From: a virus
Virus record (IMG/VR): IMGVR_UViG_3300045003_000194
Coordinates: 1-38,812 of that record
DNA length: 38,812 nucleotides
Direction: 5' to 3' (one strand)
Made by a program: the position numbers and the translations under genes. Positions 1 to 38,308 of this stretch are shown piece after piece (within the stretch, counting starts at the first letter, position 1; each line of letters begins with the position of its first letter). The notes under the pieces are model-generated. The model was not told the DNA's origin, ran no database searches, and saw only the letters and a list, made by a program, of their open reading frames with translations.

Positions 1-127
1 TCCACCGGTTTGCGATTGGGTTTGGTTACCACCGACAACGATCGATATCGCCGGCCAAGCATTGCCATCCGGCCCGGTAGTCTCACCGCCCGGAGCTTCC
101 AGCAAAAATCCTTGGGAATTGAAATTG
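1..127. repeat. Terminal redundancy, left copy (circular contig overlap)
   Basis: These 127 bases are identical to the last 127 bases of the window. The length matches a common assembler k-mer, and the coding frame crosses the join intact, so this is the overlap of a circularised contig rather than a biological long terminal repeat. True unit length is 38,685 bp. Confidence 0.95.
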
Positions 128-1188
128 TTGCTGACGGAAATCGAATCGTTGGCGAACAGGGACACCGTGCCCCCGGAAGAAGATCCGTTGGCACCAGAGT
201 TGGAATAGGTTAGCGTCCCGTTGCCCGTCGAGAGCACCTTGCAGCGCGCACAGTTGTAGCTGGAATCCGTGACGCCGGCGACTTTGATATAGACGCCAAT
301 TGGAAAGACGAAGCCTCCAGTGTAGGGCGTGAACGTGAGCGTCGAAACGTTGCTTGAACGCGATGTGGTCGTGATGGTTTGTGCTGCCAGGCTGGCATTT
401 TGGCCGATGGCAACGTTATTGCCGTTGGTCTGCGCCCCAACAATGAGGCCGCGGTTGTTTTGCAGCCAGCCCACATCCCCGGTATTTACCGCCTGCGGAA
501 TAGCCAAATTGATCGAGCCATCCGGCCCGCGCAGTAAAATGAGCGCATCCCCACCCGCTGCGCTGCCCACTTGTAGCGTAGGCACGCCAGTTCCGCCAAG
601 GCCAGCATCTCCGTAAAGGAAATTTGCTGCCGTGGTGCAAGCCGAAGAACCATTCAGGAAGAGCACCCCATTGGCTGTCGAAACTAAAGGGATGCACCCG
701 CCGCTGCTGGTAAAGTTGGCGGTGAGCGCCACCGCCGCGGCCGTGAGCGTGGATGTCAAACTCTGCGAGCTCCCGCTGATCGTGACCCCGGTCACCGTGA
801 AACACACCGGCCCTTTGCCAAACGCGGGCTGCACCGTGCCCTGTGTCGAGCACACCGTGAAAGTCCACGTGCTCCCGCCCGGCGAAAGCTGCGTGTTGTC
901 CGCCAGGGTCAGCGTGAATTTTCCGTTGATATCGAGGCCTGTGGCCTGTGTGGGCTGAATGTAAACCTGATTGTTCGAAGAAAATACCGGGGTGCCGCTG
1001 GCCACGATGCGGCTGGCGATCGTGCCGTAGGAATAGGGCAGCCCGTTGGGATCCGTGACCGTGCCGCTCACCGTGGTGAACTGCGCCCAAGCTGGCGCGC
1101 AGCCCAGCACGATGAGAAGGCACAATGTGCGCCATATCCCCCGCCCCCACGACGGGTTGAGGCGCGCAAAACGAGAATTACTCTTCAT
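1..1188 (-). CDS. Exported fibre/spike-like protein, N-terminal part (continues at 38305-38812)
   Basis: No stop codon interrupts this frame from the ATG at 1188 down to base 1, and the same frame continues across the circle join to the stop at 38305, giving about 522 residues. The ATG overlaps the stop of the upstream gene (ATGA). The N-terminus is a signal peptide: basic start, hydrophobic LCLLIVLGCAPAWA, then QF at the mature end. Next comes a carboxypeptidase-regulatory-like module (FTTVSGTVTDPNGLPYSYGT) of about 130 residues that is clearly paralogous to the start of the protein at 3889-6288. The rest is low-complexity, Gly/Ser/Thr/Asn-rich and probably beta-structured, and it ends in GSVWKCF like many phage fibre tips. 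I infer a receptor-binding fibre or spike. The Sec signal is unusual for such a protein. It is the last gene of the minus-strand arm. Confidence 0.85.
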   Translation of the reverse strand, partial: MKSNSRFARLNPSWGRGIWRTLCLLIVLGCAPAWAQFTTVSGTVTDPNGLPYSYGTIASRIVASGTPVFSSNNQVYIQPTQATGLDINGKFTLTLADNTQLSPGGSTWTFTVCSTQGTVQPAFGKGPVCFTVTGVTISGSSQSLTSTLTAAAVALTANFTSSGGCIPLVSTANGVLFLNGSSACTTAANFLYGDAGLGGTGVPTLQVGSAAGGDALILLRGPDGSINLAIPQAVNTGDVGWLQNNRGLIVGAQTNGNNVAIGQNASLAAQTITTTSRSSNVSTLTFTPYTGGFVFPIGVYIKVAGVTDSSYNCARCKVLSTGNGTLTYSNSGANGSSSGGTVSLFANDSISVSNNFNSQGFLLEAPGGETTGPDGNAWPAISIVVGGNQTQSQTGG

Positions 1189-1589
1189 TTTTTCGCCTGC
1201 TGTATGGGGGTGTCAGACTTCGAAGGCTGCGCGGCCTTGGTAGGTTCAGGTTGTGGCACGGGATTGTAATTCAAGGACTCGCGATCGAAGGTCCACTTCT
1301 TCGCATCGACGCCACTCGTCGCATCGGCCACGGCTTTCTCGAGCGCCGCCTGCGCGTCCGTGTGCTGGCGGCCCAGCTGGTCCGCCTGATCGCGCACCCG
1401 CGCCTCGATGTTCAGGATGTAGTTGCCCAGGTTCGCCTGCTGCTTTTCAATGTCATCCACTTTGTGCTGCGCATTGCGGATGGCTAGCTTTTGCGTATCC
1501 GTGGCCACGGGTGCTTGCTTGGCATCCTGCGCGAAGCCAGCGAGCAGGAACACACCCAAAACTGTTGCGTACAACAAAATCCGTTGCAT
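1185..1589 (-). CDS. Exported coiled-coil protein
   Basis: Protein of 134 residues. The start at 1589 is chosen because AAGGAG lies 9 bases upstream; an in-frame extension to 1727 lacks such a site and would bury the signal peptide. Residues 1-20 (MQRILLYATVLGVFLLAGFA) form a Sec signal or N-terminal anchor. Residues about 38-90 are charged and heptad-like (ARVRDQADQLGRQHTDAQAAL), suggesting a coiled coil, and the tail is Pro/Lys-rich. It lies between the glycosidase gene and the last fibre-like gene and overlaps the latter by ATGA. It could be a chaperone, linker or stalk for the exported fibre proteins, but the function is unknown. Confidence 0.8.
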   Translation of the reverse strand: MQRILLYATVLGVFLLAGFAQDAKQAPVATDTQKLAIRNAQHKVDDIEKQQANLGNYILNIEARVRDQADQLGRQHTDAQAALEKAVADATSGVDAKKWTFDRESLNYNPVPQPEPTKAAQPSKSDTPIQQAKK

Positions 1590-1603
1590 GTGTGAATTCT
1601 CCT

Positions 1604-3889
1604 TCACTGCAGCATAACCCCGATCGAGCGCCCAGCGGCTACCGCGCCTACCGGATTTAAAGTAAAGGTCGCCGTCACCGATGTGGTGGAATTCACCGTC
1701 ACCACGCATGTGCCATTGCCCGCACATCCACCCCCGCTCCAGCTGGTGAAGCTATAGCCAGAGCCCGCCGTCGCTGTAAGCGTGACCGAAGTGCCTTGAT
1801 TGAAGATGGCCGAACAGGTGGAGCCGCAGCTGATGCCCGTGGGCGCACTGGTGACCGAGCCCAGGCCCACTTCGATAACCGAAAACGTGTACTGAATTGT
1901 GTAAATACCCGTGACCGTGCTCCCGTCCAGCCAGCCGCTCTTGATGGAAATTGCTTTCAGCGTCTCCGATGCCGAGACGGTCACAGGCCCGCTGTAGAGC
2001 GTGCCATTGGTGCACGTGCCCGACCCGTTGCTCGCCGGTTGGCTGCCATCCGTGGTGTAGCAAGCGCCGACTCCTGCAATGGTGGTGATGGTGACGCTCT
2101 GTGCTCCCTGATACGTGCCCGGAGTTGGCGAGAGTGTAGGGCTGGGAGCCTGAAAGCTGTATGCCGCCGTGCCCACCGTCGAATCTGTATAGCCCGTGCC
2201 GCCCGCCACCGCGCTGAGTGTCAGGTCCACAGACACTGCAACTGGCGTGCTGTAGAGCGTGCCGTGCGCGCATCCGGTTGTGCCGTTCGTGCTCGGACTA
2301 GAGCCATCTGTCGTATAGCAAAGAATTGCGCCATTCGATGTCGTGGAAATGGCAATGTTCTGTGGTGCCGAGGATCCGTAATTGCCTGCCACCGGATTAA
2401 AAGTGGGTGTGTTCGCCGGCAGATTTCCGCCCCCGCCCCCCGTGAGAAGGATTGGAGCCAGGCCAACCGGCACCACTCCGCCGCTCACGTTATGCTGCAC
2501 TCCATCGAGCGTCGTGTATTTCGTGAAGCTGCCAGCGCTCTGATTGCTCACCGCCCCGCAGGTAGAAATCGTGGTGCCCGAGCAAGTGCCGGTCTTGTCG
2601 AACATGGCCAGGAAGCTTCCGCCCGTCGCCAGCGTTCCTGTGACGCTGTATACGTTGCCCACGTTTGTGTAGAGGTTGACCGTCGCCCCGATAAACCAGC
2701 CCGCCAGAATATTGTTGGCATCGCCCACGATCGACTGCGATGGCGGAAAAGATCCTTTATCCCACTGGTAGAAGTTTTCCTGTGCGATCGCCGGGCTGTT
2801 GAAGGAAACCATGAGCACGATTTCCGCGCCAAAGTATGCTGCCGCTGAGGCCACATTGGCTGGCACCGAGTTCTGTGTGTAACCCCATTCATCGTTCCAC
2901 AGCGGATAGGAGTTCAGGCTATCCGTGTTCATGACGCTCTGCGCTGCCTGCCAGGCATTGATGACGAGGCTTGGGTCGAGCGAGGTCTCGCCCTGCCCGC
3001 GCATGTGCTCATCCACGATATCGAAGGTCTGTGTGCCCGTGACCGTCTGCGCGCTCCAGGAGCAGGTTTTGCCGGAATAAGTTGCGCCCGCGGGCGGGGT
3101 GATGGTGATGTTGCGCGCCGGCGCGTTAATGGAGGTGATGTCAAACTGATGGAAGTAGCCCGAGCCCGTCATCGAGTTCACGTGGCCATCGAGTGACACC
3201 ACGCGCGAGGTCGGATCGATGCAGCGCGTGAGATTCTTCATGTCCCACGCCATCAGCACCAAGTTTTTCAGGCTGCCCGTCTGCCCTCCGCAAATCGCGC
3301 CCGTCGCCTTACACCAGAAGTTATTCGCGTCCGCCTCGTTCCACAGTGACCAGTACTTAATGTGTCCTTTGGTGTTGGCCCCACCGGAATAGCGAATGGC
3401 TAATTGCCCCACGTAATTCAGCCACCATGCATCCGCTCCTGTACCGTCGTAGTTCAGATCGTTCGGAGGTGCGCAGCCCGAGGGCCCCGGGTCGGTGCAG
3501 CCCGAAGGCGTGCCCGCCGCGGCAAATTCCGGCGTGGCCCCGAAAACGTAGATGCTGGGCATGGTGCAAGCGGGGTTCGCATCCACGCTGGTGCCGAGCA
3601 CCCAATCAAGTTTGGCGAAACTATAGCCCGTGGTATCGGTCGGAGACGCGGCCGAGAGTTCCACCTGATCCCACTTCACCCCGTCATCCCACAGCCGGTT
3701 GCTGTTAAACACCGCCTGCCCTTGCGTGAGTGTTTGCGGACACCAGGGATGCGGCTGGGTGGGATTCCCGTTCGGCGAAATCATGTTGGTGGAGGAGCCA
3801 AAGAAAGAAGCTGGCACCGTGTTGGTTTGCGCGCTTGCGCCGGCGCACGCCAGCAGAGCGAAGGCGAAAACACTTACTAGGCGCCGCAT
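1604..3889 (-). CDS. Exported clan GH-A-like glycoside hydrolase with CHB_HEX_C and InlB-like repeats
   Basis: Protein of 761 residues starting at the ATG in a TAATG overlap with the stop of the upstream gene. Residues 1-20 are a clear signal peptide ending ASA before QTN. The catalytic part (about 25-460) has the two hallmarks of a (beta/alpha)8 clan GH-A glycosidase: WNE near residue 185 (acid/base at the end of strand 4) and WNDEW near 334 (nucleophile at the end of strand 7), as in GH5/GH39-like enzymes. Two chitobiase C-terminal-like repeats follow (each with CYTTDGS and a TLYS...PV segment), then an InlB-type repeat containing TATAGSGYSFTSWSGGGC. I infer a secreted polysaccharide depolymerase or spike enzyme acting on host capsule or wall glycan. 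The substrate cannot be read from the sequence. Confidence 0.85.
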   Translation of the reverse strand: MRRLVSVFAFALLACAGASAQTNTVPASFFGSSTNMISPNGNPTQPHPWCPQTLTQGQAVFNSNRLWDDGVKWDQVELSAASPTDTTGYSFAKLDWVLGTSVDANPACTMPSIYVFGATPEFAAAGTPSGCTDPGPSGCAPPNDLNYDGTGADAWWLNYVGQLAIRYSGGANTKGHIKYWSLWNEADANNFWCKATGAICGGQTGSLKNLVLMAWDMKNLTRCIDPTSRVVSLDGHVNSMTGSGYFHQFDITSINAPARNITITPPAGATYSGKTCSWSAQTVTGTQTFDIVDEHMRGQGETSLDPSLVINAWQAAQSVMNTDSLNSYPLWNDEWGYTQNSVPANVASAAAYFGAEIVLMVSFNSPAIAQENFYQWDKGSFPPSQSIVGDANNILAGWFIGATVNLYTNVGNVYSVTGTLATGGSFLAMFDKTGTCSGTTISTCGAVSNQSAGSFTKYTTLDGVQHNVSGGVVPVGLAPILLTGGGGGNLPANTPTFNPVAGNYGSSAPQNIAISTTSNGAILCYTTDGSSPSTNGTTGCAHGTLYSTPVAVSVDLTLSAVAGGTGYTDSTVGTAAYSFQAPSPTLSPTPGTYQGAQSVTITTIAGVGACYTTDGSQPASNGSGTCTNGTLYSGPVTVSASETLKAISIKSGWLDGSTVTGIYTIQYTFSVIEVGLGSVTSAPTGISCGSTCSAIFNQGTSVTLTATAGSGYSFTSWSGGGCAGNGTCVVTVNSTTSVTATFTLNPVGAVAAGRSIGVMLQ

Positions 3890-6288
3890 TATTGCCACCT
3901 TCGGATCAAGGCCGAAACTTTCGCCGCTGTCGTGCCCCCGCCGACCCATTTGCCAGCAATCGCGGTAGCCGAGTTGTCCACATCGAACATGTAGCAGCCG
4001 GCATACTCGCCCGCGGCGCTTGTGGTAAAGGTCAGCGCCGGCGACGCAACCCCGAGTTGCGACAATGGCACCGCCTGATTGACTTGACTGACGCTATTTG
4101 AATTCTTGTAAGAGACGGTGAAGCCGATCACGCCGGAGGTTGCTGAGGAGACCGAAGCGTCATAACAAAATTCATAAGTAGCTGCCGTTGCTGCCGGCGT
4201 TAGAGATATCAGCGAACCATCCGCCGTGCCGGTTTCCGCTTTTTGCGAGGTTGCGGCCCGCGTATAGGTAAAGCCGAAAGCCGCTGTTGCTTCCCCATTC
4301 CACTTGTTAAAGAAGTTGTGCCCGGAATCGATGGTGATGTTGGCCGTGCTCGCCAATTGGTTCGCGCCATTGGCATACAAAAGATTCCCAGAGGCCAGCG
4401 AGCCACCCGTGTAGACCGTGCTCGACGTCGTGCCGAGGACCCATTCCGTGCCATCGTAAATCGCTTCATAGATTCCGCCCGCCGTGATGTCGCCCGAGGC
4501 TCCGAGTGCGGCCACGCCACCCGTGGTGCGCTTGTCGAGAGCGATCGCACCATAGGCCGATCCGCCGGCAGGTGTCACATTCAGAGTCGACGCACCGGAA
4601 GAGGCATTGCTCGCCTTGAAGCGAACTGTCAAGCCGGTTGCGATCGAACTAGGGAAGCCGTTGCAAGTGACCGCGTAGGCGTTCGCTGCTCCGGTGTCGG
4701 CCGCGTAGCACGTGATCCAGGTCGATGAGCCCGCATCCTTGATTCCACCATTGCCATCGCCGATGATGGCGTCGGCTGCCGTCGAAGCGCCTCCACTAGC
4801 TGTGAAGTACGCGGTGTCGGTGCCATACGCCGTGGTCACATTCGCCGGCGTGGAATTTTGCAGCGAGATGGCTCCACCCGCAGTAAGCGACAGTGGCCCA
4901 ACGGCTGAAAGCGCGCCGCCATTCGTGGTGGTAGCACAGGTGGTGCAGCCATAACTTGGTCCGGTAGCCGTTCGGCTGATGGTGATGGGAGAGGTGACGC
5001 CCGTCGCTTGCTCAGTCACGTCCGCGGCCCAGTTGTTCGCCGTCTTGGGATCAACAAAGAGGACCGCTTCTTGTCCTGCCTGCAAAACCAGTGTCGCTCC
5101 AGCGGTGCCGCCCGAACCTGCCGAAATCGTCCATGTGGTCGGAGTGATGGTGACTGTGTTTGTCGTGTTATTCGCCAGCTTGGTGGTGCAATTCGCAACC
5201 CCAAGCGTGCTGGGCGTAGGCAGAGTCACAGCAACTGCAGCCGCGCCCGTATAAACCACGCGCTGCGGGTTGCAATCCGTTGATGCAATCGTGTCGGTTG
5301 TTCCTGTGACCGAGCGTCCACTGATTCCCGGCAATAAAAATACCGGTGCCACTGCCGCGCCGCTGGCCGGAATGCTGGCAAGCACCTGTGGCACCCCATT
5401 CGGAGTCGTAGCCCCTGCCAGTCGCGTCGCCGCTCCCGCAGCCCCGCCATAGAGGACGTCGCCCAGTGTGGTCATGGGATTGGCGAATCCCGTAATGGAA
5501 AACATGGTCAGGCAGGGATTCGGAGCGCTTGCCGTGGTGTAGCCGTACGCAAATCCATTGGTCGGGCTGAAGCCATTGCAGGGCGGAACCGCGCCGAACA
5601 GGGCAACGTTGGGATTCGGATAAGTACCGGAGAGTCCGCCACCCGCACTGCCACTGGGCGCAGCCGTGACGCTATTGAAGGTTCCACCAAGCGTGATGGT
5701 GGTGCCATTGATGACCGTGGTGGCTGCATTGGCGATCGAGGAATTAGCCAGCGGAAACGTGATGCCGGTATCGGTGAGGCTGGTTCCCTTCGCATCGTTC
5801 CAGATGGCAATGTCGCCGATGGTGGTGCTGCCCGGCCCACTGACCGTTCCACTTCCACCGATAGTTGAGGTCAGGGAGAGCGCTGCCGCATTCAGGGTGG
5901 TGCTGATATCCTGCGAAGCGCTGCTGATCGTGACCCCGCTGACCGAAAAACAAATCGGCCCTTTGCCTAAACTGGGCTGCACCGTCGATCCGCCCGAGCA
6001 CACCGTGAAGCCCCACGTGGTGCTGTTCGGCGAGAGCAGCGTGTTGTCCGCCAGTTGCAGGGTGAACACGCCATTGATGTCGAGTCCGGCCGGTTGAATC
6101 GGCGGCGTATACGGCAGGCCATTGATGGTGGGAGTGGCCGAAGTGGTTAGCGTGGCCGAGATAGTGCCGAAGGAATAAGGCAGGCCGTGGGGATCTTTGA
6201 CCGTCCCTGTGACCTGAGTAAACTGCCCGAAAGCCACTGCGCTTGCAAAAAAGAGCGCCCACAAAACCAGTAGTTTCTTGCCCGCCAT
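3889..6288 (-). CDS. Large exported fibre/spike-like protein
   Basis: Protein of 799 residues. The ATG at 6288 has AGAGGA 8 bases upstream. A signal peptide (LLVLWALFFASAVAFG) precedes QFTQVTGTVKDPHGLPYSF, a module of about 130 residues shared with the protein that crosses the window edge (1-1188). The middle is a long Ser/Thr/Gly/Ala-rich beta-type region with repeats of the form GDVLYGG and GNLLYANGANQL, typical of phage fibre shafts. The last 130 residues look like a compact beta-sandwich tip (CYMFDVDNSATAIAGKWVGG). I infer a second receptor-binding fibre or spike. Its stop is overlapped by the start of the glycosidase gene, so the two are probably translated together. Confidence 0.85.
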   Translation of the reverse strand: MAGKKLLVLWALFFASAVAFGQFTQVTGTVKDPHGLPYSFGTISATLTTSATPTINGLPYTPPIQPAGLDINGVFTLQLADNTLLSPNSTTWGFTVCSGGSTVQPSLGKGPICFSVSGVTISSASQDISTTLNAAALSLTSTIGGSGTVSGPGSTTIGDIAIWNDAKGTSLTDTGITFPLANSSIANAATTVINGTTITLGGTFNSVTAAPSGSAGGGLSGTYPNPNVALFGAVPPCNGFSPTNGFAYGYTTASAPNPCLTMFSITGFANPMTTLGDVLYGGAAGAATRLAGATTPNGVPQVLASIPASGAAVAPVFLLPGISGRSVTGTTDTIASTDCNPQRVVYTGAAAVAVTLPTPSTLGVANCTTKLANNTTNTVTITPTTWTISAGSGGTAGATLVLQAGQEAVLFVDPKTANNWAADVTEQATGVTSPITISRTATGPSYGCTTCATTTNGGALSAVGPLSLTAGGAISLQNSTPANVTTAYGTDTAYFTASGGASTAADAIIGDGNGGIKDAGSSTWITCYAADTGAANAYAVTCNGFPSSIATGLTVRFKASNASSGASTLNVTPAGGSAYGAIALDKRTTGGVAALGASGDITAGGIYEAIYDGTEWVLGTTSSTVYTGGSLASGNLLYANGANQLASTANITIDSGHNFFNKWNGEATAAFGFTYTRAATSQKAETGTADGSLISLTPAATAATYEFCYDASVSSATSGVIGFTVSYKNSNSVSQVNQAVPLSQLGVASPALTFTTSAAGEYAGCYMFDVDNSATAIAGKWVGGGTTAAKVSALIRRWQ

Positions 6289-6315
6289 AAATCCATTCCT
6301 CTTCTGCGAGAGGTC

Positions 6316-6774
6316 TTATCCAAAAAACTTGAGCAACGCCCACAGCGCCAGCCCGCCCACCGCGATCATGCTCAGCAAGCTGCCCGTATCCGGCGCACCC
6401 GCCGTCTGCTCAGGCGAAGCGCTTAAAACAGAATTCACCGCCTCAAGACTCGCTGAATAAATTCCACTCGTGAAGGTCGACCACGGAGAAAAACTGCTGC
6501 CTGCTGCGGAGTACACCGCGTAGGCAGCCGCGGCATTGGTCGCAGGGTCGAAAAGATTCTGTCCCTGAAATTCGGGATGCGCCTTGAGGTAAATCTGCCA
6601 CAGACCGAATGAGCCATAGCCCTGCGGCGCACCCGCTGCCGCTTCCGGGTTGTAGGCTTGCGGATTCCCGCCCGACTCGGCCAGCGCGATCGCCACCGCT
6701 GTGGCTAGATCACTGCCCGAGAAGCCAGCCGCGGAAGCCAGCGCCAGCAGTTGCGAGATGGAAAGCGCGCTCAT
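6316..6774 (-). CDS. Membrane-anchored lytic transglycosylase-like protein
   Basis: Protein of 152 residues, ATGA-coupled to the gene at 6771. The region AIALAESGGNP (Glu about residue 33) followed by GSFGLWQIY and LFDPATNAAAAY is the SLT/lysozyme-like fold pattern of soluble lytic transglycosylases, with the catalytic Glu, the GxxQI-type strand and the NAxxAY helix. Residues about 132-150 (LLSMIAVGGLALWALLKFF) form a C-terminal membrane segment. A small transglycosylase held in a membrane is what PRD1-type virions use to drill the peptidoglycan during entry (protein P7), so I infer a virion entry enzyme. An ordinary endolysin is the alternative, but the C-terminal anchor argues against it. 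Confidence 0.87.
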   Translation of the reverse strand: MSALSISQLLALASAAGFSGSDLATAVAIALAESGGNPQAYNPEAAAGAPQGYGSFGLWQIYLKAHPEFQGQNLFDPATNAAAAYAVYSAAGSSFSPWSTFTSGIYSASLEAVNSVLSASPEQTAGAPDTGSLLSMIAVGGLALWALLKFFG

Positions 6775-7001
6775 GCAATCTCTTCAAAATCGTCCGGCTC
6801 GGGCAATTCCGATTCAGGGATAACTTCTAATTCTTCGATTGTGCGCCCCTCGCGTTCGGCCGTGCGGAAGTAATCACAGTTGCCCAGATGCTCTCGCTTA
6901 TAGGTTTCGCATTCCGCTTCCGTGATGCCCCAGAACTGATGGGACACCTTGATGGTTTCATCGCCGCCATCGACAATGTGCACCGTGAGCAGGTAGGCCA
7001 T
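6771..7001 (-). CDS. Small acidic protein of unknown function
   Basis: Protein of 76 residues from the ATG at 7001. It is beta-strand-like at the start (MAYLLTVHIVDGGDETIKVS) and strongly acidic at the end (ESELPEPDDFEEIA). The start overlaps the stop of the zinc-ribbon gene upstream, and the end overlaps the lytic transglycosylase start by ATGA, so it belongs to the lysis/entry block. I do not recognise the family. Confidence 0.75.
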   Translation of the reverse strand: MAYLLTVHIVDGGDETIKVSHQFWGITEAECETYKREHLGNCDYFRTAEREGRTIEELEVIPESELPEPDDFEEIA

Positions 7002-7144
7002 CAGTCGTGACTCCGCTTGCCCTTGCACTTTTTGCAGCAGCGATACCGCTTCTTTTGGCAGACCCCAAGCGTGGTGCCGCAATGAAAACAGGGCAGTCCA
7101 TACTTTTTTCGCAGCACTGCACCCGCCCAAAAGTGAATTCTCAT
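7001..7144 (-). CDS. Short zinc-ribbon protein
   Basis: Protein of 47 residues. The ATG at 7144 forms ATGA with the stop of the upstream gene. A longer open frame to 7312 exists but is only the shadow of that upstream gene. It has PCFHCGTTLGVC followed by CCKKCKGKR: two CxxC-type knuckles and a basic tail, so probably a zinc ribbon able to bind nucleic acid or protein. Function unknown. Confidence 0.7.
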   Translation of the reverse strand: MRIHFWAGAVLRKKYGLPCFHCGTTLGVCQKKRYRCCKKCKGKRSHD

Positions 7145-7323
7145 GCTCTCAGCCTCGCTGCCATCCGTCGCGCGCTCGCCAGCGCCCGGCGGCCCCAATT
7201 GGGCGCGCAATCCTCGCAAATCTCCGCGTCGCACACCGGGCAATAAAAGCACATCTTCTGCCGCGCGTCCCCGTCCACAAAAAAGCAGACGGTGCACACG
7301 GCTAAATGCCAATCGCTCGCCAT
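7141..7323 (-). CDS. Small cysteine-rich zinc-binding protein
   Basis: Protein of 60 residues with three CxxC-type pairs (VCTVC, FYCPVC, EICEDC) and a basic C-terminus (GRRALASARRMAARLRA). This arrangement is common in small phage proteins of unknown role. I place the start at the ATG at 7323; a GTG at 7335 is an in-frame alternative. It overlaps the next gene by ATGA. Confidence 0.7.
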   Translation of the reverse strand: MASDWHLAVCTVCFFVDGDARQKMCFYCPVCDAEICEDCAPNWGRRALASARRMAARLRA

Positions 7324-7327
7324 CTCT

Positions 7328-7588
7328 TCATGCACTCGGCTTCGCTGGGTCCGCCGCAGCCACAGGTTGCGCGAACTGCAGCTGCATCCCGTTGGCCTTC
7401 ATCCAGGCTGCCACCCGGCTGATGGTGTCTTGGTCCGCCGCATTCGAAGCCGCGATCGCATTGGCGATATTTTTCTTTTCATCCGGCCCCAGATTCAGCA
7501 AGCCTTCGAGCTTGATAATGAGTTCCACCGCCAGCGGACCCAGTTGCACGATGAGCGCGACAATTTCCGAAAGTAGTTGCGGATTCAT
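7328..7588 (-). CDS. Small helical protein of unknown function
   Basis: Protein of 86 residues, ATGA-coupled to the lipoprotein gene upstream. The first 35 residues form an amphipathic to hydrophobic helix (LLSEIVALIVQLGPLAVELI), followed by a helical region with AWMKANGMQL. It sits between the lipoprotein and the zinc-binding proteins in the lysis/entry block. It could be a membrane-associated lysis accessory, but no family is recognised. Confidence 0.75.
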   Translation of the reverse strand: MNPQLLSEIVALIVQLGPLAVELIIKLEGLLNLGPDEKKNIANAIAASNAADQDTISRVAAWMKANGMQLQFAQPVAAADPAKPSA

Positions 7589-8076
7589 GGCTGCGAATTT
7601 CCTCCTGTCCCTTGCACCGCCTCGACGGCCGCAAGCAGCGCACCCGCCAGCGCGCCCACATTCTGCACGTCCTGCTGAAAGGTCTGCTGGGAGCGCGGAT
7701 TTTTGATACCCAATGCCGCGGATGGCATCTGCGTGATGGAGCTTTTAATCAGGTCGACCAGATGCTGCACGCTCTGCACATTGGCCTGCGTCGCCTGCCC
7801 CTGTGCCAGGACGCCGGTAATCTGCGCATGCAGGATGGCCACCTGTCCGCACCAGGCGATGACCGGAGCCGCTTGCGCCGTGCTCACCAGTTTGGACGAT
7901 GCCGCCACCTCCATGCCTTGCTCTACCGCGTTGTTCGCCTCAGCCAGTGCCGCATTGTAGGTGTGCACTCGCTCCCAGGGCGTGACCGCGCCCGTCGACT
8001 TGTGAATGCAGGCCGCGACCAGCAGCAAAACCGTGATGACAGGTAGAACGGAAATGACTCGATGAGTGCGCATCAT
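7585..8076 (-). CDS. Lipoprotein, possible spanin-like
   Basis: Protein of 163 residues. The N-terminus is a lipoprotein signal: basic MMRTHR, hydrophobic VLPVITVLLL, then lipobox VAAC with Cys about residue 22. The mature part is helical and Gln/Ala-rich. The gene is ATGA-coupled to the holin-like gene before it and to a small helical gene after it. A lipoprotein next to a possible holin and a peptidoglycan lytic enzyme would fit an outer-membrane spanin component or a superinfection-exclusion factor. Neither can be proven from the sequence. Confidence 0.78.
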   Translation of the reverse strand: MMRTHRVISVLPVITVLLLVAACIHKSTGAVTPWERVHTYNAALAEANNAVEQGMEVAASSKLVSTAQAAPVIAWCGQVAILHAQITGVLAQGQATQANVQSVQHLVDLIKSSITQMPSAALGIKNPRSQQTFQQDVQNVGALAGALLAAVEAVQGTGGNSQP

Positions 8077-8351
8077 GATCGTGTCTCCGAAGGTGGAGGA
8101 TAAGTGCCGTTAACTTTCTCGAGGTGCGCTGCTACTGCCGCGGCCCAGTTGGGAGAATTCTCAATCGCTGTCGACTGCGCGCGGCGCAGGTTGCCGATGA
8201 TGGTATTGGCCACCTTGAACCAATACACGTACTTCGGCGAAGAATCTTTAGTAGGTGCGGGCAGGGAAGAGACCAGCGCCGAAATGACGTTGTTCAAAAT
8301 CCACGTCGCCACCACCGCGCTCGCATAGGGATGTGCTGCCAGCCACTTCAT
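8073..8351 (-). CDS. Small membrane protein, holin candidate
   Basis: Protein of 92 residues, ATGA-coupled at both ends. Residues about 8-30 (HPYASAVVATWILNNVISALVSSLP) are hydrophobic enough for one membrane helix. The rest is soluble (YWFKVANTIIGNLRRAQ). Size, single helix and position next to a lipoprotein and a lytic transglycosylase make a class III-like holin or lysis accessory possible. I am not certain of the family. Confidence 0.7.
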   Translation of the reverse strand: MKWLAAHPYASAVVATWILNNVISALVSSLPAPTKDSSPKYVYWFKVANTIIGNLRRAQSTAIENSPNWAAAVAAHLEKVNGTYPPPSETRS

Positions 8352-8533
8352 CGTTCCCGCCCGCCCTCTTCCACCTGATAGCCCTTTACCTTGGCCCAGT
8401 GGATGATCCGCTCGGCAAATTCCTCATCCGTGGTCGAGATCACCGCCACGTTCAGCCGGATGCCGCTGCCGCTCCCTCGCGCCTTCCATACCGACAGCAC
8501 CCGGTTGACGATGCCACTGTTCGCGGATGCCAT
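8348..8533 (-). CDS. Small protein of unknown function
   Basis: Protein of 61 residues ending in an ATGA overlap with the holin-like gene. It has an alternating strand pattern (IRLNVAVISTTDEE) followed by a helix (EFAERIIHWAKVKGYQVEE), a compact alpha/beta mini-domain. The Shine-Dalgarno is close and weak (GAAGGG two bases before ATG), so the start is less sure. The 115 bases upstream, to 8648, hold a short hairpin (GTGGT/ACCAC, 8598-8610) and no convincing gene. Confidence 0.6.
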   Translation of the reverse strand: MASANSGIVNRVLSVWKARGSGSGIRLNVAVISTTDEEFAERIIHWAKVKGYQVEEGGRER

Positions 8534-8648
8534 GACCCTTCAATCGGCAAACCTTGCACGTGCGTACCGCCCAAACACCCGAAGTCAGATGGTCTAAGTG
8601 GTAAAACCACCACGCGCCGCTGACTCTTTTTTCCCCTCTCGCCACCGC

Positions 8649-9455
8649 TCAAAACTGCGCATAACTCACCGAAATCGTAGCCGTGGCCGTGATGGCTCCC
8701 GTGGCCACGCACACCGCATGCCCCGTGGCCTGTGTGCGCGCCAGCGCGCCCAGCGTATTGCCAATGAATGGCAGAATTTGCGGCGTGGTCGAGAGCACCT
8801 GCAGCTGCCACAGGGTTTGCACCACGCTCGCGCAGCCCGCCGCCGTGCCCTCTTCTAAAACGACGGTGCCCGTCGTCGTGGCCGCGCCAAAGCTGATCGA
8901 CATTCCACAGATGTAAATATTGGCGCCAGCAAACACGCCCACCAGCGTGGTGGTGGTAGATTGCGCCGGCTGAATGATGATGGTTTTGTCGCACGCCACG
9001 GGCGAAGTCGGCCCATTGCTGCCGAGCGCCGCTGCCGCAAATTCAATGGGGGCAGCGACTGCCGTATACCAGGCGCTAATCGATCCCGCGCCGTAATTGC
9101 TGACTGCGACGCGCACGCCGTCGTAGTACCCGCCCGCCTGCAGCACATGGCATCCGGTATCGGTGACGCTATTTTGACCGTAGGACGCGGAGGCGATCGT
9201 GGTTGCATTGGAGAAGCTTCCGCCCGGGCCCGCCTGCAGGCTGATTGTGCCGCTGAATCCCGTGGTGCAGTAGGCCAGCAGATGCGTAGACTGCCCGAGG
9301 TTTTGCAGCACCGGGCTGTTCACGTTGGCGCTTTGGTTGGTAAATACGGTGACCGAGACCGTTTGATTGGCCACCGTGCCGAGAAACTGCGCCTGTGCTG
9401 CCATCGCACAAAGCAGCAAGCTTACGAGCGCCAGTTTTGTGCTTCTCACACCCAT
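8649..9455 (-). CDS. Exported beta-rich protein, possible virion decoration
   Basis: Protein of 268 residues. A signal peptide (LALVSLLLCAMAAQA) precedes QFLGTVANQTVSV. The mature part has two beta-sandwich-like halves, each with one or two Cys pairs that could form disulphides in the periplasm: about 25-140 with GSFSNATTIASASYG, and about 145-268 with VACDKTIIIQPAQSTTTT. It overlaps the capsid-like gene upstream by 10 bases, so it lies at the end of the capsid-like block. I infer a surface or spike protein. It has no enzyme motif. Confidence 0.75.
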   Translation of the reverse strand: MGVRSTKLALVSLLLCAMAAQAQFLGTVANQTVSVTVFTNQSANVNSPVLQNLGQSTHLLAYCTTGFSGTISLQAGPGGSFSNATTIASASYGQNSVTDTGCHVLQAGGYYDGVRVAVSNYGAGSISAWYTAVAAPIEFAAAALGSNGPTSPVACDKTIIIQPAQSTTTTLVGVFAGANIYICGMSISFGAATTTGTVVLEEGTAAGCASVVQTLWQLQVLSTTPQILPFIGNTLGALARTQATGHAVCVATGAITATATISVSYAQF

Positions 9456-16102: not shown

Positions 16103-16245
16103 GCAAAACTCACTGTATTCGGACGCACTCCAGACATCATCTGCACTAGCGGATTGTGCTCATCCCATGGCTGCTGAAATTCGTACGCAGTAAACGCATA
16201 CGCTCCAACTCCAAGCAAGAGCAAAATTAACAGTGTGTCACTCAT
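16099..16245 (-). CDS. Single-pass small membrane protein
   Basis: Protein of 48 residues. ATGA overlaps on both sides fix its limits, and a longer frame to 16836 is only the shadow of other genes. It starts MSDTLLILLLLGVGAYAFTA, one membrane helix at the very N-terminus, followed by a polar tail. The only anchored protein of this block with an N-terminal helix. Size and form suit a small integral virion-membrane protein. Confidence 0.72.
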   Translation of the reverse strand: MSDTLLILLLLGVGAYAFTAYEFQQPWDEHNPLVQMMSGVRPNTVSFA

Positions 16246-18371: not shown

Positions 18372-18892
18372 CGCTTCCCCTTGAACATCCACAGCAGCGC
18401 GAACGCCGCCGCCCCCGCGATGCCCCAGTTGGGAATTCCTGCAATCAGCGTCTGCTCGGAAAGCCACGCGCCGAATCCGCTGGCCACGTTGACGCTGTTG
18501 CCCGCTGAATCGAGCACCGTCCCCGGTTGTGTCAGCTGGGGCGCCGTCTGATCCGCGCCTACGGCCACGCTCGGGGAGGGCTGCGGCGCGCCAGGCGTGC
18601 CGCCCGGAGCCGACACAACCGAGCCTGAAGATGGGCCGAGCGGAGGCGGCTGGGGGACCGTCGCTGTCGCGCCCGGATAGTTGCGCCAAATCGGAACGGG
18701 CATCACCGGAATCGGCTCCACAATGGGGAAAGGCCAGCGCACCGGAGGAGCGCCACAGCCCCACGCCGGACATGGCATCATGCCCTCGCCCGTGATGGTC
18801 GCTGCCCCGAGCCGCACCATGTGCGCTTTTCCATCAGTCAGCGTGCGCGGCGCAATTTCCCACGGCGCGCGATACACATATCGGCCGCTCAT
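18368..18892 (-). CDS. C-terminally membrane-anchored Pro-rich protein
   Basis: Protein of 174 residues, ATGA-coupled to both neighbours. N-terminal MSGRYVYRAPWEIAPRTL, a Pro-rich stretch (FPIVEPIPVMPVPIWRNYPG), a Ser/Gly/Pro linker, and a C-terminal helix (NWGIAGAAAFALLWMF) ending KGKR. The Pro-rich arm could extend through a capsid shell. Part of the anchored-protein block. Confidence 0.75.
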   Translation of the reverse strand: MSGRYVYRAPWEIAPRTLTDGKAHMVRLGAATITGEGMMPCPAWGCGAPPVRWPFPIVEPIPVMPVPIWRNYPGATATVPQPPPLGPSSGSVVSAPGGTPGAPQPSPSVAVGADQTAPQLTQPGTVLDSAGNSVNVASGFGAWLSEQTLIAGIPNWGIAGAAAFALLWMFKGKR

Positions 18893-19785
18893 CGCTTCAC
18901 CGCCACTAAAACCAATCCGCCAATCAGCAGCCAGGGCAATGCCGACGAAAACAGGGAACTGGAAATGGCATTCAATCCCCCATAGCCCGCCGCTGGCACC
19001 GCGTACCCGGGAGTGTAGGGAGTCATGAACGAGGCATAAGGGCTGCCGGTGGAAACTGTGGCCCCCGATGGCAGCCGCATCGCTGTGGGTTGCCCTGAAA
19101 CCGTGGCGATAATTCCCGGAATCTCTTGAATGCTTTGCGAGAGGATCGCATTCGCATCGATGCCTGAACCGTCATCGCCGAGCGAGCCCATGCTCAGATA
19201 CCCGGAGAGCCCCTGCAGCCGCGTGCACCCATTCATGTCCTGATAGGTGCCATCGGTGAGCGACCACACCCGCTTGCGGAAATAAACCGGAGGCTGTAAA
19301 CCGAATTGCGAATTTGGCCGCGCCGCATCGACCGCCACCCAGCGCCCCGAGCCTGCCGGCACTTCCACTTCCGTGTACACGTGCGAGAAATCGTTGGGAT
19401 AGTCGGGCTGCGCTGCCACCGTCACCAGACGCGCCGGATAACCCAGCGCGATCGCCAGCGCACCCATGAGCATGGCGATGTCGTCGCAGTCCCCCGCCCG
19501 CTTTTTCAGTAGCTCCAAGGGAGGCGTGAGCAATTCCTTGGTAACCGGGTCTTTGGTGTACCGGATATGCCCCTGCACCCACTGAAACAGGGAAAAAACT
19601 TCCCCGTAATCGTCATAAGCGGGAATATGCCGTACCAATTCGACCGAAAACCGGATGAATTGGGGATCATTCAGGGCTTGATCGATCAGCTTGCGCATCA
19701 GCCGCACGGTTTGTGCTGTGCCCGCATCGCCGTCGAGAAGGGGTGCGCGATAGCCGAGTAAGTTACCCGCGTGCTGAAGCCGCAA
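18889..19785 (-). CDS. Transglutaminase-like protein with C-terminal membrane anchor
   Basis: Protein of 298 residues starting at a TTG with AGAGAGG 8 bases upstream. Residues about 25-160 form a transglutaminase-like cysteine-protease fold with the full triad in order: Cys100 in KKRAGDCDDIAML, His135 in DFSHVYTEVEV and Asp153 in WVAVDAA. A linker follows, then a C-terminal helix from about 276 (FSSALPWLLIGGLVLVAVKR). The enzyme could cleave or cross-link peptide bonds in virion proteins or in the host wall peptide. It is the first gene of the minus arm, next to the divergent regulatory gap. A membrane-tethered enzyme of this type is unusual in a phage. Confidence 0.85.
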   Translation of the reverse strand: MRLQHAGNLLGYRAPLLDGDAGTAQTVRLMRKLIDQALNDPQFIRFSVELVRHIPAYDDYGEVFSLFQWVQGHIRYTKDPVTKELLTPPLELLKKRAGDCDDIAMLMGALAIALGYPARLVTVAAQPDYPNDFSHVYTEVEVPAGSGRWVAVDAARPNSQFGLQPPVYFRKRVWSLTDGTYQDMNGCTRLQGLSGYLSMGSLGDDGSGIDANAILSQSIQEIPGIIATVSGQPTAMRLPSGATVSTGSPYASFMTPYTPGYAVPAAGYGGLNAISSSLFSSALPWLLIGGLVLVAVKR

Positions 19786-24584: not shown

Positions 24585-25064
24585 ATGAAAGCCACTCTCG
24601 TCATCGCCGCACTGCTGTGCGCCAGCCTCTTTACGCTGCGCCCGGCCCAAGCCACCAACCGCCAGCCGCAAGGCCCAGTAGCGCACGGCACGCTGATTCT
24701 CACCGATGCCGTGCCCTATGGCGTCTTGTTCACCCCAACCGTAACCGGACAATACCAGCTCAACCTGTACAGCACCATGGAAGTGCCCGACGCGCATTCC
24801 ACCGCGCAGTGGACCTTTCAGCTGGGCTGGACCGATGGCGCCGGCATTGAATCTGCGCCCGTGCTCCAGGTGCTGAATTCCGCGCAGTCGTTCCCCTCCG
24901 CGTGGGGCAGCGTCAATGGCGCGGGCGGCCAGCCCGGCAGCGTGAGCACCTTCATCACCGCCTCGCAGACACCCATCAGCTATGTGGTGACCAAAGACCA
25001 GACCGACCATGCCGTGCTGAAAGTGTTTTGGACGCTGGAACTTTTGCAGCCGACGCAGGAGTAA
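24585..25064 (+). CDS. Exported beta-rich protein
   Basis: Protein of 159 residues. The ATG follows AAAGGAG by about 10 bases. Signal peptide MKATLVIAALLCASLF...AQA, then a beta-rich domain with YGVLFTPTVTGQYQLNLYST, TAQWTFQLGWTDGAG and LKVFWTLELLQP, resembling a jelly-roll or galactose-binding-like sandwich. It is the only clearly secreted soluble protein of the plus arm. It could be a virion surface component or an accessory protein for host binding. A 13-bp inverted repeat follows. Confidence 0.78.
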   Translation: MKATLVIAALLCASLFTLRPAQATNRQPQGPVAHGTLILTDAVPYGVLFTPTVTGQYQLNLYSTMEVPDAHSTAQWTFQLGWTDGAGIESAPVLQVLNSAQSFPSAWGSVNGAGGQPGSVSTFITASQTPISYVVTKDQTDHAVLKVFWTLELLQPTQE

Positions 25065-35379: not shown

Positions 35380-36242
35380 AAATCGCCAGAGTGTTCCCGC
35401 GACAAACGAGAGCGACGCCAAATGATGAGTTGGCGTTCTTTGGCCCGCCACCGTTCTACGTGGAAGCCGACGAGGTGCACGTCTCTGTAACGTTCACCGC
35501 TGACAAGCTTCGCGCCGAAGAATTAGCCGAGCAGTGGAAGCACATTGCTCCGGTAAAGATCGGCGGTGTAGCCTACGGCGATCCGGGCCAGAAGTTTATC
35601 CCAGGCAAATACATCAGGCACGGCTACACGTTCACTTCCCGCGGATGCCCAGAGCGATGCTGGTACTGCTCAGTCTGGAAGCGCGATCCAAAGATTCGGT
35701 TGCTGCCGATTCAGGACGGATGGAACATCCTCGATGACAACCTGCTCGCCTGCCCCGAGGATCATTTCCGCTCCGTCATCGCCATGCTGTCGCGACAGAA
35801 GCGCCGCGTCGAATTCACGGGCGGGCTTCAGGCATCACGCCTCACGGATTGGCACGTACAAGGGTTTGCGAGCCTCAAACCGCGCCCGGTGTGCTTTTTC
35901 GCATACGACGATCCCGACAAGTGCAAAAAGAGCCCATACGAAGCCATGCGCGCAGCAGCCGAAAAGATGTTATCTGCTGGCTTCACCACTGCATCCCACC
36001 GCCTGAGAACGTTCGTATTTATCGGATTCCCGCACGATACATTTGAGAAGGCAGAGCGCCGCCTGCGTGAAATGGTGGATATCGGCTTCACGCCTTTCGC
36101 AATGTTATGGCAGCCGGAAACCCCGAGCGCGGAGAAGTGGAGACCGGCGCCAGAATGGAAGAAGTTTCAGAACAGTTGGGCACGGCCCGCTCGCATTTAT
36201 CCGAGCAATCGCACCGATCAGCAGGCAGAGATGTTCGCATGA
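35376..36242 (+). CDS. Radical SAM protein
   Basis: Protein of 288 residues from a GTG overlapping the preceding stop (GTGA). The CxxxCxxC signature is complete: SRGCPERCWYCSVW (Cys91, Cys95, Cys98). Next follow the GG motif region (VEFTGGLQASRLTDWHV) and FFAYDDPDKCKKSPYEAM, RTFVFIGFPHDTFEKAERRL, consistent with a (beta/alpha) barrel and an E/P-type strand. It would reductively cleave S-adenosylmethionine. The substrate is unknown; because its neighbours are a DNA methyltransferase and ATPase, DNA or tRNA modification is a reasonable guess. Overlaps the ATPase gene by ATGA. Confidence 0.88.
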   Translation: MKIARVFPRQTRATPNDELAFFGPPPFYVEADEVHVSVTFTADKLRAEELAEQWKHIAPVKIGGVAYGDPGQKFIPGKYIRHGYTFTSRGCPERCWYCSVWKRDPKIRLLPIQDGWNILDDNLLACPEDHFRSVIAMLSRQKRRVEFTGGLQASRLTDWHVQGFASLKPRPVCFFAYDDPDKCKKSPYEAMRAAAEKMLSAGFTTASHRLRTFVFIGFPHDTFEKAERRLREMVDIGFTPFAMLWQPETPSAEKWRPAPEWKKFQNSWARPARIYPSNRTDQQAEMFA

Positions 36243-37330
36243 TCCCCCTCGGCTTCGAAGTTCCCACCGGCCAGCCTGTACACGTCCCCGCTGGCCACAT
36301 GGTGATAGTGGGTCAAACGCAAAGAGCCGGGAAAACCACCGCCCTAGAAGCCTGCGCCTCGCGCTCGGAGAAAAAGTGCATCGCCTTCCTCACCAAGCGC
36401 GGCGAAGGCTCATTCCGACTGGCTCACGAAATCCCGCCCTACTACGAGGACCATCCCGACTGGCGCACCGTGCGCGCGCTTTGTGAAGCACTCACGGAAG
36501 AAAAGTATGATAAATTCCAGCGCCAGTGCTTGCGCAGCGTCTGCCGCGCCGGACAAAGCGGACGGCCTGCCACCAAAAGCTTTGTGGAATGGGAGAAGCC
36601 CGCTACGCTTGAAGAAATTCTCCGCAACTGCAATCTAGCCCTCTCGAAGGCGGGCGGACAGCGCGAGTTGATTTTTGGCGAACTGAAAGACGACCTCGAG
36701 ACCGCGACCGAAGAACTGGCCAAGCTGAAAACCAAATCCGCCGACCCGCAGCTAGTCGAAGGCTTGAACGTGATCGACTTGGAGCGCTACGAGTTTCACA
36801 TCCAGTCGCTGATTGTGCGCAGTGTCATCCGCTGGGTGCACCGCTACTCCCAAAAGACGATTGTGGCCATGCCCGAGGCCTGGAGGTTCGCGCCCGCGCA
36901 AAGAAGGTCTCCTGTGCGCGACGCCGCCGAGGAATTTATCCGCCAGGGCGCTGCCCTTGAGAATTTCCTGTGGATTGATTCCCAGAACATTTCCGGCATC
37001 TCCGCCGTGCTCCTGTCCCAAATCCGCGTATGGCTCTTTGGCGTGCAGCGCCTGCGCTCGGAGATTGAAAAGACGCTGGACGCCATCCCTGATTTTTTGT
37101 ACCCGCGACCAAAAGCAGGCGACATTGCCGGACTCGGCCGCGGCGAATTCATCGTGTGCTTCGATCAGGAGATGTACCGCACCTACGTGTGGCCCGCCTG
37201 GATGAAATATGCTGCCCACGCCGAAGCCATCGCCCGCGGCGAAGAACCTGTAGACTCAGCTAGAGAGATTGTGAGGGAATTCGATGCAGAGAGGATTAGC
37301 GATGGCAGGACTGATCGCGACGCTTCTTAG
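36239..37330 (+). CDS. Second HerA/FtsK-superfamily ATPase
   Basis: Protein of 363 residues; the ATG forms ATGA with the radical SAM stop. Walker A is GQTQRAGKT (25-33), followed by FLTKRGEGSFR. The Walker B-like strand is TIVAMPEAWRFAP (about 208-219), where Pro replaces the usual Asp but the Glu is kept, as I recall for this phage family. ENFLWIDSQNISG (about 241) is the sensor, then LLSQIRVWLFGVQRLRSEIE. It is smaller and simpler than the ATPase at 27936, closer in size to packaging ATPases of membrane phages (PRD1 P9, P23-77), so it is my slight preference as packaging motor. Its last 30 residues are part of a displaced cassette: the older 3' end lies at 37801-37866. Confidence 0.83.
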   Translation: MIPLGFEVPTGQPVHVPAGHMVIVGQTQRAGKTTALEACASRSEKKCIAFLTKRGEGSFRLAHEIPPYYEDHPDWRTVRALCEALTEEKYDKFQRQCLRSVCRAGQSGRPATKSFVEWEKPATLEEILRNCNLALSKAGGQRELIFGELKDDLETATEELAKLKTKSADPQLVEGLNVIDLERYEFHIQSLIVRSVIRWVHRYSQKTIVAMPEAWRFAPAQRRSPVRDAAEEFIRQGAALENFLWIDSQNISGISAVLLSQIRVWLFGVQRLRSEIEKTLDAIPDFLYPRPKAGDIAGLGRGEFIVCFDQEMYRTYVWPAWMKYAAHAEAIARGEEPVDSAREIVREFDAERISDGRTDRDAS

Positions 37331-37799
37331 CGTGTTTGGCTGCCGCAGCAGCAAGAGCGGCAAAACATCAGACGCCAACCCAACGAAGCAGACACTGCAA
37401 CACTTGGTTGCCACACTCACTCCATGCCCCGATGCTGCCGATGGTCTTGCTTTAGACAAACTATGGCCTCTTTTCACCGACACGCCAAACGATCTAACTG
37501 TATGGATGAGCGACGATTACTCGAAGAATCGCTGGGAGCCAGTCTTTCAGGCGTGGCAGGAGAAGTTGGATAAATACCGAGCATGGGCAGGAGCCCTCCA
37601 AGATCGCTGCGCTAGGGACGCCTATTTGCACTGGCTAGATTATTATCAGCGTCAACTGGAAACGGCCCGCGACGAACTGCGCACGCACGCTGAGCAAAAC
37701 CACATGCAGCAATACGATGCACAATTAAAGCGCGAACGTGCAGACCGTGACGCCTACCAGCAAGAGGTTAATGGAAAATTCCCCGACCCGCCACACTAA
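37284..37799 (+). CDS. Inserted lipoprotein gene
   Basis: Protein of 171 residues overlapping the ATPase gene by 47 bases. Start ATG at 37284 has GAGG 8 bases upstream; an internal ATG at 37302 has GAGAGG and is also possible. The N-terminus MQRGLAMAGLIATLLSVFGC is a lipoprotein signal with Cys about residue 20. The mature part is helical and rich in charged residues (LETARDELRTHAEQNHMQQY). Base use is less GC-rich than its neighbours. It splits the old ATPase 3' end from the next gene, so it is a late arrival, like a moron. A role in superinfection exclusion is possible. Confidence 0.75.
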   Translation: MQRGLAMAGLIATLLSVFGCRSSKSGKTSDANPTKQTLQHLVATLTPCPDAADGLALDKLWPLFTDTPNDLTVWMSDDYSKNRWEPVFQAWQEKLDKYRAWAGALQDRCARDAYLHWLDYYQRQLETARDELRTHAEQNHMQQYDAQLKRERADRDAYQQEVNGKFPDPPH

Positions 37800-38078: not shown

Positions 38079-38308
38079 GCCACCAGAGCCGCTACAATCC
38101 TGAGTCGAACATCCAGCCTCCGAAGTGCCCCTACTGCTCCACCCCGCTGCCCCAAGTCGATTGCTATCAATGGACGCGCCAGGCCGCATCCGGCCTGATG
38201 ATGATCTTCGCCATCAACTGCCCTAACGCCGAGTGCAAGAAACTGCTAGGCACGCAGATTGCGCTCATTCCCCATGCCGAAGAGCATGCCATCGTCGGCC
38301 CGCACTAG
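38075..38308 (+). CDS. Zinc-ribbon protein ending the plus-strand arm
   Basis: Protein of 77 residues from the ATGA overlap; the longer frame from 37814 is a shadow of the membrane gene. CPYCSTPLPQVDCYQWTRQA then INCPNAECKKLLGTQI gives two Cys pairs of a zinc ribbon. Its TAG shares the CTAG at 38305-38308 with the minus-strand fibre gene, so the two arms end stop to stop. Function unknown. Confidence 0.75.
   Translation: MSHQSRYNPESNIQPPKCPYCSTPLPQVDCYQWTRQAASGLMMIFAINCPNAECKKLLGTQIALIPHAEEHAIVGPH

Follow-up and report, generated by a model that had tools for sequence, protein, structure and literature searches.

The viral DNA analysed here, a stretch of 38,812 nucleotides (IMG/VR record IMGVR_UViG_3300045003_000194, positions 1 to 38,812; hereafter the window), raises the question of where the outer parts of a virus particle are put on. 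Phages of the build proposed below for this virus are thought to assemble their spikes and fibres inside the cell, and exported spikes or fibres are unusual for that reason. An initial annotation had nevertheless read Sec signal peptides on eight of the predicted proteins, which we name by the positions of their starts; among them are fibre A (1188), fibre B (6288), a depolymerase-like protein (3889) and the 9455-type protein, encoded beside the capsid-region genes. Based on the data below we propose, with a probability of about one half, that the receptor-binding and enzyme appendages are exported, acquire their fold in the periplasm and are joined to particles outside the cytoplasm.

Sec signal peptides on eight predicted proteins

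All eight starts are present, at 1188, 1589, 3889, 6288, 8076 and 9455 on the minus strand and at 24585 and 37284 on the plus strand, and all head open reading frames (ORFs). Scoring of the N-termini combined the von Heijne prokaryotic cleavage matrix with rules for hydrophobicity, charge and the lipobox. Calibrated on 43 annotated proteins of E. coli K-12, this rule flags 11 of 11 secreted proteins, the single lipoprotein, none of the 24 cytoplasmic proteins, one of six inner-membrane proteins and not the one Tat substrate. The eight window proteins all show Sec signal features, six of type I and two lipoprotein-like, and the annotation is borne out by the scores. Those of the six type I proteins are high, from 7.1 to 12.0: 8.0 (1188), 8.1 (1589), 10.5 (3889), 12.0 (6288), 11.4 (9455) and 7.1 (24585). 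The lipoprotein expected at 8076 has the lipobox LVAA↓C (arrows mark predicted cleavage sites), and that at 37284, SVFG↓C, is weaker. A positive n-region, a hydrophobic h-region and a small-x-small cleavage site, the features of Sec/signal peptidase I substrates, were found, and plausible ribosome-binding sites precede several of the genes. The least certain calls are 1589 and 37284, and it is possible that 1589 has an uncleaved anchor.

Signal peptides arising by chance were rejected by the controls, namely the E. coli set, 30 other families of the window and its relatives (0/242 proteins flagged) and four known tailless phages, PRD1, PM2, P23-77 and FLiP (3/103 flagged, no spike among them). 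Unassigned proteins of at least 60 amino acids (aa) were flagged in 24 of 251 cases.

Conservation of the export signals

Sixteen viral contigs were recruited with the 11800 protein, seven in a first scan and the rest with an alignment. The 9455-type protein is recognised in the window and in 16/16 of these relatives; its N-terminus is hydrophobic up to AQF or SQF, and in all of them a signal peptide is followed by the mature start QF(I/L/V)G. A motif scan picked up 13 of these proteins, all 13 with a hydrophobic stretch and a small-x-small site, and missed 4/17. Alignment columns become invariant at the predicted cleavage site A↓QF·G, with Q23, F24 and G26 behind it as the earliest such residues; relative to what follows, the segment before the site is variable (mean pairwise identity 28% vs 37%) and always hydrophobic. 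The gene lies just downstream of the capsid-region genes, the window copy sharing 10 bases with the gene before it, and stands beside capsid genes in every contig examined, with another gene intervening after 9982 in G004, G007 and L079. Extra domains bring members of the family up to 557 aa. No relative turned up when the 9455 sequence alone was used for scanning, and an alignment-based scan with the family gave 8 loci.

The fibres share an N-domain of about 130 aa directly after the signal. Among 42 unique N-termini, 40 pass the site test (a hydrophobic stretch with a signal-peptidase site), a count that includes one true counterexample, L085, where the start codon adjoins the domain; L064 (second row) and L118 fail. 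The strict rule passes 12/17 9455-type and 14/21 fibre-type proteins (9/21 at the automatically called start), most failures reflecting a start called too late or an atypical residue at −3. When the 9455-type and fibre N-domain families are compared with hhalign, alignment is limited to the signal peptide and the QF. The match to most relatives of fibre B covers mainly the first ~230 residues, and the repeats of residues 258-320 also occur in many phage fibre proteins; as read from these matches, the predicted architecture of fibre B is a constant attachment domain with variable tips. The gene for fibre A crosses the circle junction and ends at 38305, giving a full length of 522 aa.

For the depolymerase-like protein, 3889 is the natural start, whereas the longest ORF would begin at 3949. 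Its domains include chitobiase-like ones at the C-terminus and an InlB-like one, and its N-terminal 460 aa gave no sequence match in the PDB. Two motifs in this N-terminal region, LWNE and LWNDEW, we read as glycosidase-like. In one relative a different predicted exported protein of 374 aa, esterase-like by eye, adjoins the fibres (L069 6810-7934, equal to G003 26810-27934); judged on its sequence, it is possibly a swap-in enzyme for the glycosidase-like protein of the window.

No relative of the fibre N-domain was found in a set of bacterial and archaeal genomes, nor one of the P-loop ATPase described below, and tblastn with the 11800 protein and fibre B against named phages gave nothing. An origin of the fibres as host-derived surface proteins is not favoured, the N-domain having no chromosomal relative in that set, and membrane-anchored fibres are not favoured since the boundary is a cleavage-type site. 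The AxA↓Q sites and an SGTVxDPxG motif bring the Acidobacteriota to mind as a possible host group, a suggestion and no result of this analysis.

Paired cysteines

The mature 9455-type proteins contain 4, 6, 8 or 10 cysteines, an even number in 17/17 sequences. None of 20,000 column shuffles gave an even count in all 17 rows, although the shuffle ignores relatedness. Columns 82 and 127 are occupied in one clade and replaced by 49 and 146 in the other; the pairs 533+578, 286+370 and 478+490 are each jointly present or jointly absent, and column 278 is invariant with a likely partner that alternates between 492 and 376. The fibre N-domain likewise has alternative pairs, 156+172 in 14 sequences, 157+161 in five and 78+122 in three, with a half-present pair in 0/22. 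By comparison, the capsid-region families 11800, 10945, 10502 and 9982 are cysteine-poor (0.29-0.76 vs 1.95-2.07 per 100 aa).

This pairwise evolution of cysteines is the strongest sign that the proteins may fold outside the cytoplasm. Their export looks real, as the strict pairing fits disulfides formed there, and together with the conserved signal peptides it lends good support to the earlier reading that these proteins leave the cytoplasm.

Fold of the 9455-type protein

A model of the 9455 protein (predicted local distance difference test, pLDDT, 70.6) shows a signal helix and two beta-sandwich domains. The closest PDB fold match of the N-domain is YomS (6i5o_A, Z 10.4, 3.2 Å over 102 residues). 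The phage 7-7-1 fibre tip follows (9rkv_N, Z 9.0, 2.8 Å, 101 residues), with XepA (6i56_B, Z 8.9, root-mean-square deviation 20.6 Å over 191 residues, where both domains match and their arrangement does not), the STIV turret (3j31_P, Z 8.2, 10.9 Å, 189 residues; 4ind_A, Z 8.2, 11.0 Å, 192 residues) and the KHP40 cement protein (7dou_4, Z 8.0, 3.5 Å, 106 residues). PDB rows within one Z unit were counted as tied. The predicted fold points to a phage appendage or to a protein like XepA, and has no power by itself to decide, because turret, fibre-tip and cement proteins give similar Z. A search of PDB sequences with the 9455-type family (hmmsearch) returned neither YomS nor XepA at E ≤ 1.

Predicted exported fibres in other phages

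The scan with fibre B gave 50 loci with full-length fibre proteins sharing the C-terminal repeats, many of the rows being near-duplicates; five were flagged as exported (L011, L014, L026, L041 and L042) and 45 were not, and L010 looks exported by eye and is unflagged by the rule. L042 lies with contractile-tail genes and L014 with an internal-virion/lytic tail protein. With the unflagged spikes of PRD1, PM2, P23-77 and FLiP, the 45/50 unflagged fibres agree with the premise of the initial annotation that phage fibres normally lack signal peptides.

The same predicted exported N-domain occurs in contigs G008 (L115) and G009 (L119), which carry a terminase (E 1.4e-20 and 3.5e-24, respectively) and match PHROG virion and tail families. 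The large proteins after their structural genes all have export signals (850, 744 and 661 aa in G008; 794, 917 and 246 aa in G009). Small ORFs lie there too, some with hydrophobic starts, and no plain fibre gene is among the ORFs listed after the structural genes. The presence of the exported fibre domain in terminase-bearing contigs means that the trait is not restricted to a single type of capsid.

Where the exported proteins may act

The initial annotation left two outcomes of export, that the proteins join the particle at the envelope or that they alter the host, and we favour the first. Fibres A and B, the 9455-type protein and the glycosidase-like protein would be secreted via the host Sec pathway. 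In the periplasm their signal peptides would be removed, leaving a mature N-terminus that is usually Gln-Phe, and disulfides would form. Capsid proteins would remain in the cytoplasm, where particles would be assembled and packaged, and the appendages would dock outside it, either during lysis, while still in the periplasm, or shortly after release. The basis for this model in the sequences is the conserved signal peptides, the cleavage-site boundary, the paired cysteines and the position beside capsid genes; cleavage, oxidation and docking to virions, with its place and time, are what we infer. The likeness of the 9455 fold to virion appendages (fibre tip, turret and cement) and the phage-fibre repeats at the fibre C-termini are consistent with it. 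Weighing against it, no sorting or docking partner was found, and the fold closest to the 9455 N-domain belongs to YomS, a relative of XepA, which is reported to be cytotoxic and absent from mature phage. Furthermore, in L085/L120 (same contig; L120 at ~9990-10010) a fibre starts at the conserved domain without a signal peptide; this is the only clear exception, and it means that export is not obligatory for that fibre and can be lost.

The main rival, which we consider unlikely, is that the exported proteins are never in the virion and act in or on the host envelope. They would mask or alter receptors to prevent superinfection, remodel the polysaccharide of the cell surface or coat the cell, and the enzyme would free progeny by loosening extracellular polysaccharide. 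Sec export is the normal route of envelope proteins, two lipoproteins accompany the exported proteins, the enzyme near the fibres appears to be esterase-like in G003 and glycosidase-like in the window, and the sharing of one exported domain by differently built viruses would suit a role independent of the virion. Against this, the C-terminal modules are phage-fibre repeats, the genes lie within the structural arm with the 9455-type gene always next to capsid genes, no other fibre gene is visible in G008 or G009, and the fibre N-domain has no relative among the bacterial genomes scanned. A more restricted role, in which the 9455-type protein is a XepA-like lysis protein that disrupts the inner membrane, in a cassette with the lipoprotein and lysozyme just downstream of its gene, and only the fibres are virion parts, is improbable. 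The fold matches to YomS and XepA speak for it, as does an excerpt of the XepA report describing a cytotoxic two-domain beta-sandwich pentamer (PMC6834076); however, there is no sequence match to these structures, the family is tied to capsid genes and grows to 557 aa by extra domains, and turret, fibre-tip and cement proteins score similarly. It is more improbable still that the N-terminal segments are uncleaved membrane anchors or misassigned starts, leaving the proteins cytoplasmic or anchored in a viral membrane. The inner-membrane protein flagged in E. coli and the 1589 protein, a possible anchor with a weak Rz-like match, would fit such a reading, whereas the small-x-small sites at a fixed alignment boundary, the cysteine pairs, the ribosome-binding sites and the absence of flags in the other families do not.

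Building on periplasmic docking, we tentatively suggest, at somewhat less than even odds, a second build route for icosahedral double-stranded DNA (dsDNA) phages. Naked particles would be made in the cytoplasm; receptor-binding fibres, turret-like spikes and enzymes would be secreted, gain their disulfide bonds in the periplasm and join the particles only outside the cytoplasm; and the exported fibre module would be exchanged between jelly-roll-like tailless phages and terminase-bearing tailed phages.

Comparison with known systems

The precedents found for exported virion proteins come from extruded or vesicle-like viruses, namely pVIII of the filamentous phage Ff and a pleolipovirus spike. 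The virion proteins of Ff are located in the inner membrane, and its filament leaves by extrusion; unlike in Ff, the signal peptides of the window are on appendages only and the capsid-region proteins have none. For the prokaryotic DNA virus HHPV4, a pleolipovirus, an excerpt of the source gives a predicted signal peptide on the VP11 spike (PMC5867852). Pleolipoviruses are capsid-less archaeal membrane vesicles with membrane-embedded spikes, whereas the window and its relatives encode capsid candidates of jelly-roll-like type, and their exported proteins show no obvious membrane anchor. P23-77 and the other tailless jelly-roll phages compared (Matsushitaviridae, Corticoviridae, Tectiviridae and Finnlakeviridae), unlike the window, have no annotated spike or receptor-binding protein flagged for export. 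A paper on sphaerolipoviruses describes vertex spikes and release by lysis, and nowhere contains the word 'signal'.

XepA, from a B. subtilis prophage, is according to an excerpt of its report not in the mature phage and cytotoxic (PMC6834076). XepA and YomS have the beta-sandwich fold in common with the 9455 protein and XepA is called an exported protein in a PDB title; homology in sequence was not found. The similar beta-sandwich domains of the STIV turret (C381) and the phage 7-7-1 tail-fibre tip are in virion appendages, a structural likeness only (Z 8-9), and no relationship in sequence was found. The endolysin Lys44 of phage fOg44 uses the host Sec system, as an excerpt of the source has it (PMC6116005), and is a lysis enzyme, unlike the receptor-binding and structural candidates of the window.

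The open-licence literature yielded no report of signal peptides on the tail fibres or spikes of icosahedral dsDNA phages. The field in fact uses missing signal peptides as a mark of phage receptor-binding proteins; an excerpt on phage diversity-generating retroelement proteins takes the lack of detectable transmembrane regions or signal peptides as support for a phage origin (PMC6199706). If export were to hold for whole groups of environmental dsDNA phages, the site of virion completion, the making of disulfide-bonded adhesins and the annotation of adhesins in viromes would need rethinking, and a receptor-binding module attached from outside could move between unrelated virion types.

Genome and virion type

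Positions 38686-38812 repeat positions 1-127 exactly, and this 127-bp terminal repeat implies that the molecule is a circle of 38,685 bp. Four relatives also have terminal repeats, with total lengths of 33-36 kb. The virus is probably tailless and jelly-roll based, and is assigned to no named taxon. Neither phrog_2 nor PF03237 detected a terminase in the window and five relatives (0/6 each; G000-G004 and G006), phrog_2 detecting only 2/7 comparison records, which limits the sensitivity of the test. P23-77 and PM2 have circular dsDNA like the window, and tailless jelly-roll phages likewise have a P-loop packaging-ATPase candidate and no terminase found; the window genome is about twice the size of that of P23-77.

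The 11800 protein is the most conserved structural protein (62-90% in relatives). Its AlphaFold model, built on an alignment of 16 sequences, has a pLDDT of only 43.6, probably because the sequences are too alike. The best PDB rows are mostly viral single jelly-roll capsid proteins, including those of SPV1 and HHIV-2, at Z ≤ 5.6. The model points weakly to a single jelly-roll major capsid protein, a candidate that we treat as a lead. A BFVD search gave no match at E ≤ 0.001, and hhalign of the family against P23-77 VP16 and VP17 aligned nothing. The conserved P-loop ATPase lies on the other arm in relatives; in a profile comparison its P-loop aligned only weakly to the P23-77 ATPase (probability 7.4, E 0.0047) and it gave no alignment with PRD1 P9. 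The two ATPases scanned had no Pfam match to Zot, no search aimed at Zot having been made. A HerA-like protein matches one environmental record at 34.5%, and its gene is not universal in the family.

The structural arm has nearly the same order in the relatives: a transglutaminase-core protein, several proteins with C-terminal hydrophobic segments, 14748, 13155, 12420, 11800, 10945, 10502 and 9982, then the 9455-type protein, small and lipoprotein genes, lysozyme and fibres. The hydrophobic segment at the C-terminus of several of these proteins is only suggestive of an internal lipid membrane. Within 15605-19785 (minus strand) several of them end in a single hydrophobic segment and a basic tail, which suggests a set of viral-membrane proteins. 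The conserved family at 17475-18371 (minus strand) is cysteine-rich (2.65 per 100 aa), lies between two hydrophobic segments and has no signal peptide. A second, more distant clade (L105-L113 and L116; ~40% in the 11800 protein) was found in the fibre-domain scan.

Table 1. Positions in the window of the predicted features.
Feature	Position	Strand	Remarks
Fibre A (522 aa), predicted exported, N-terminal part	1..1188	−	Signal peptide 1084-1188 (...CAPAWA↓QFTTVSGTV)
Fibre A, C-terminal part after circle closure	38305..38685	−	
Small coiled-coil-like protein, 134 aa, predicted exported	1185..1589	−	Signal or anchor, MQRILLYATVLGVFLLAGFA↓QD
Depolymerase-like protein, 761 aa, predicted exported	1604..3889	−	Signal peptide 3830-3889; two CHB_HEX_C/Fn3_assoc domains and one Flg_new_2 domain (Pfam)
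Fibre B (799 aa), predicted exported	3889..6288	−	Signal peptide 6226-6288 (AFG↓QFTQV); conserved N-domain; phage-fibre repeats at residues 258-320
SLT_3 lysozyme/transglycosylase	6316..6774	−	C-terminal hydrophobic segment, no signal peptide; Pfam
Lipoprotein	7585..8076	−	Lipobox LVAA↓C, signal 8011-8076; orthologues in G001, G003, G007, L079 and L080
9455-type protein, 268 aa, predicted exported	8649..9455	−	Signal peptide 9390-9455 (AQA↓QFLG); two beta-sandwich domains; six mature cysteines
Conserved structural-arm protein, 178 aa	9446..9982	−	No signal peptide
Conserved structural-arm protein, 171 aa	9972..10487	−	No signal peptide
Conserved structural-arm protein, 144 aa	10499..10933	−	No signal peptide
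Candidate major capsid protein, 256 aa	11030..11800	−	Most conserved structural protein; jelly-roll model of low confidence
Transglutaminase-core protein	18889..19785	−	C-terminal hydrophobic tail; conserved, head of structural arm
159-aa protein, predicted exported	24585..25064	+	Signal 24585-24653; no orthologue in seven relatives compared
Conserved P-loop ATPase, candidate packaging ATPase	36239..37330	+	GQTQRAGKT; 45-81% in relatives
Candidate lipoprotein	37284..37799	+	SVFG↓C, weak lipobox; no orthologue in seven relatives compared

Other features

A relative of the 1589 protein adjoins a fibre in G002, and the Rz-like PHROG match of this protein has an E of 0.029. On the right arm, a tyrosine integrase on the opposite strand (31548-32213, minus strand) has no match in seven relatives and overlaps a plus-strand ORF, 31443-32129, whose start reads like the N-terminus of a serine recombinase. 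The protein at 23295-23789 (plus strand) has a hydrophobic N-terminus and a weak TadE-like (pseudopilin) match (E 0.0036). An SNF2-type helicase fused to an N6/N4 DNA methyltransferase (32734-35379, plus strand) is full length in G001 and not in the others compared. The DUF5131 protein at 26989-27939 (plus strand; Pfam E 2e-66) is kept in 5/7 relatives compared.

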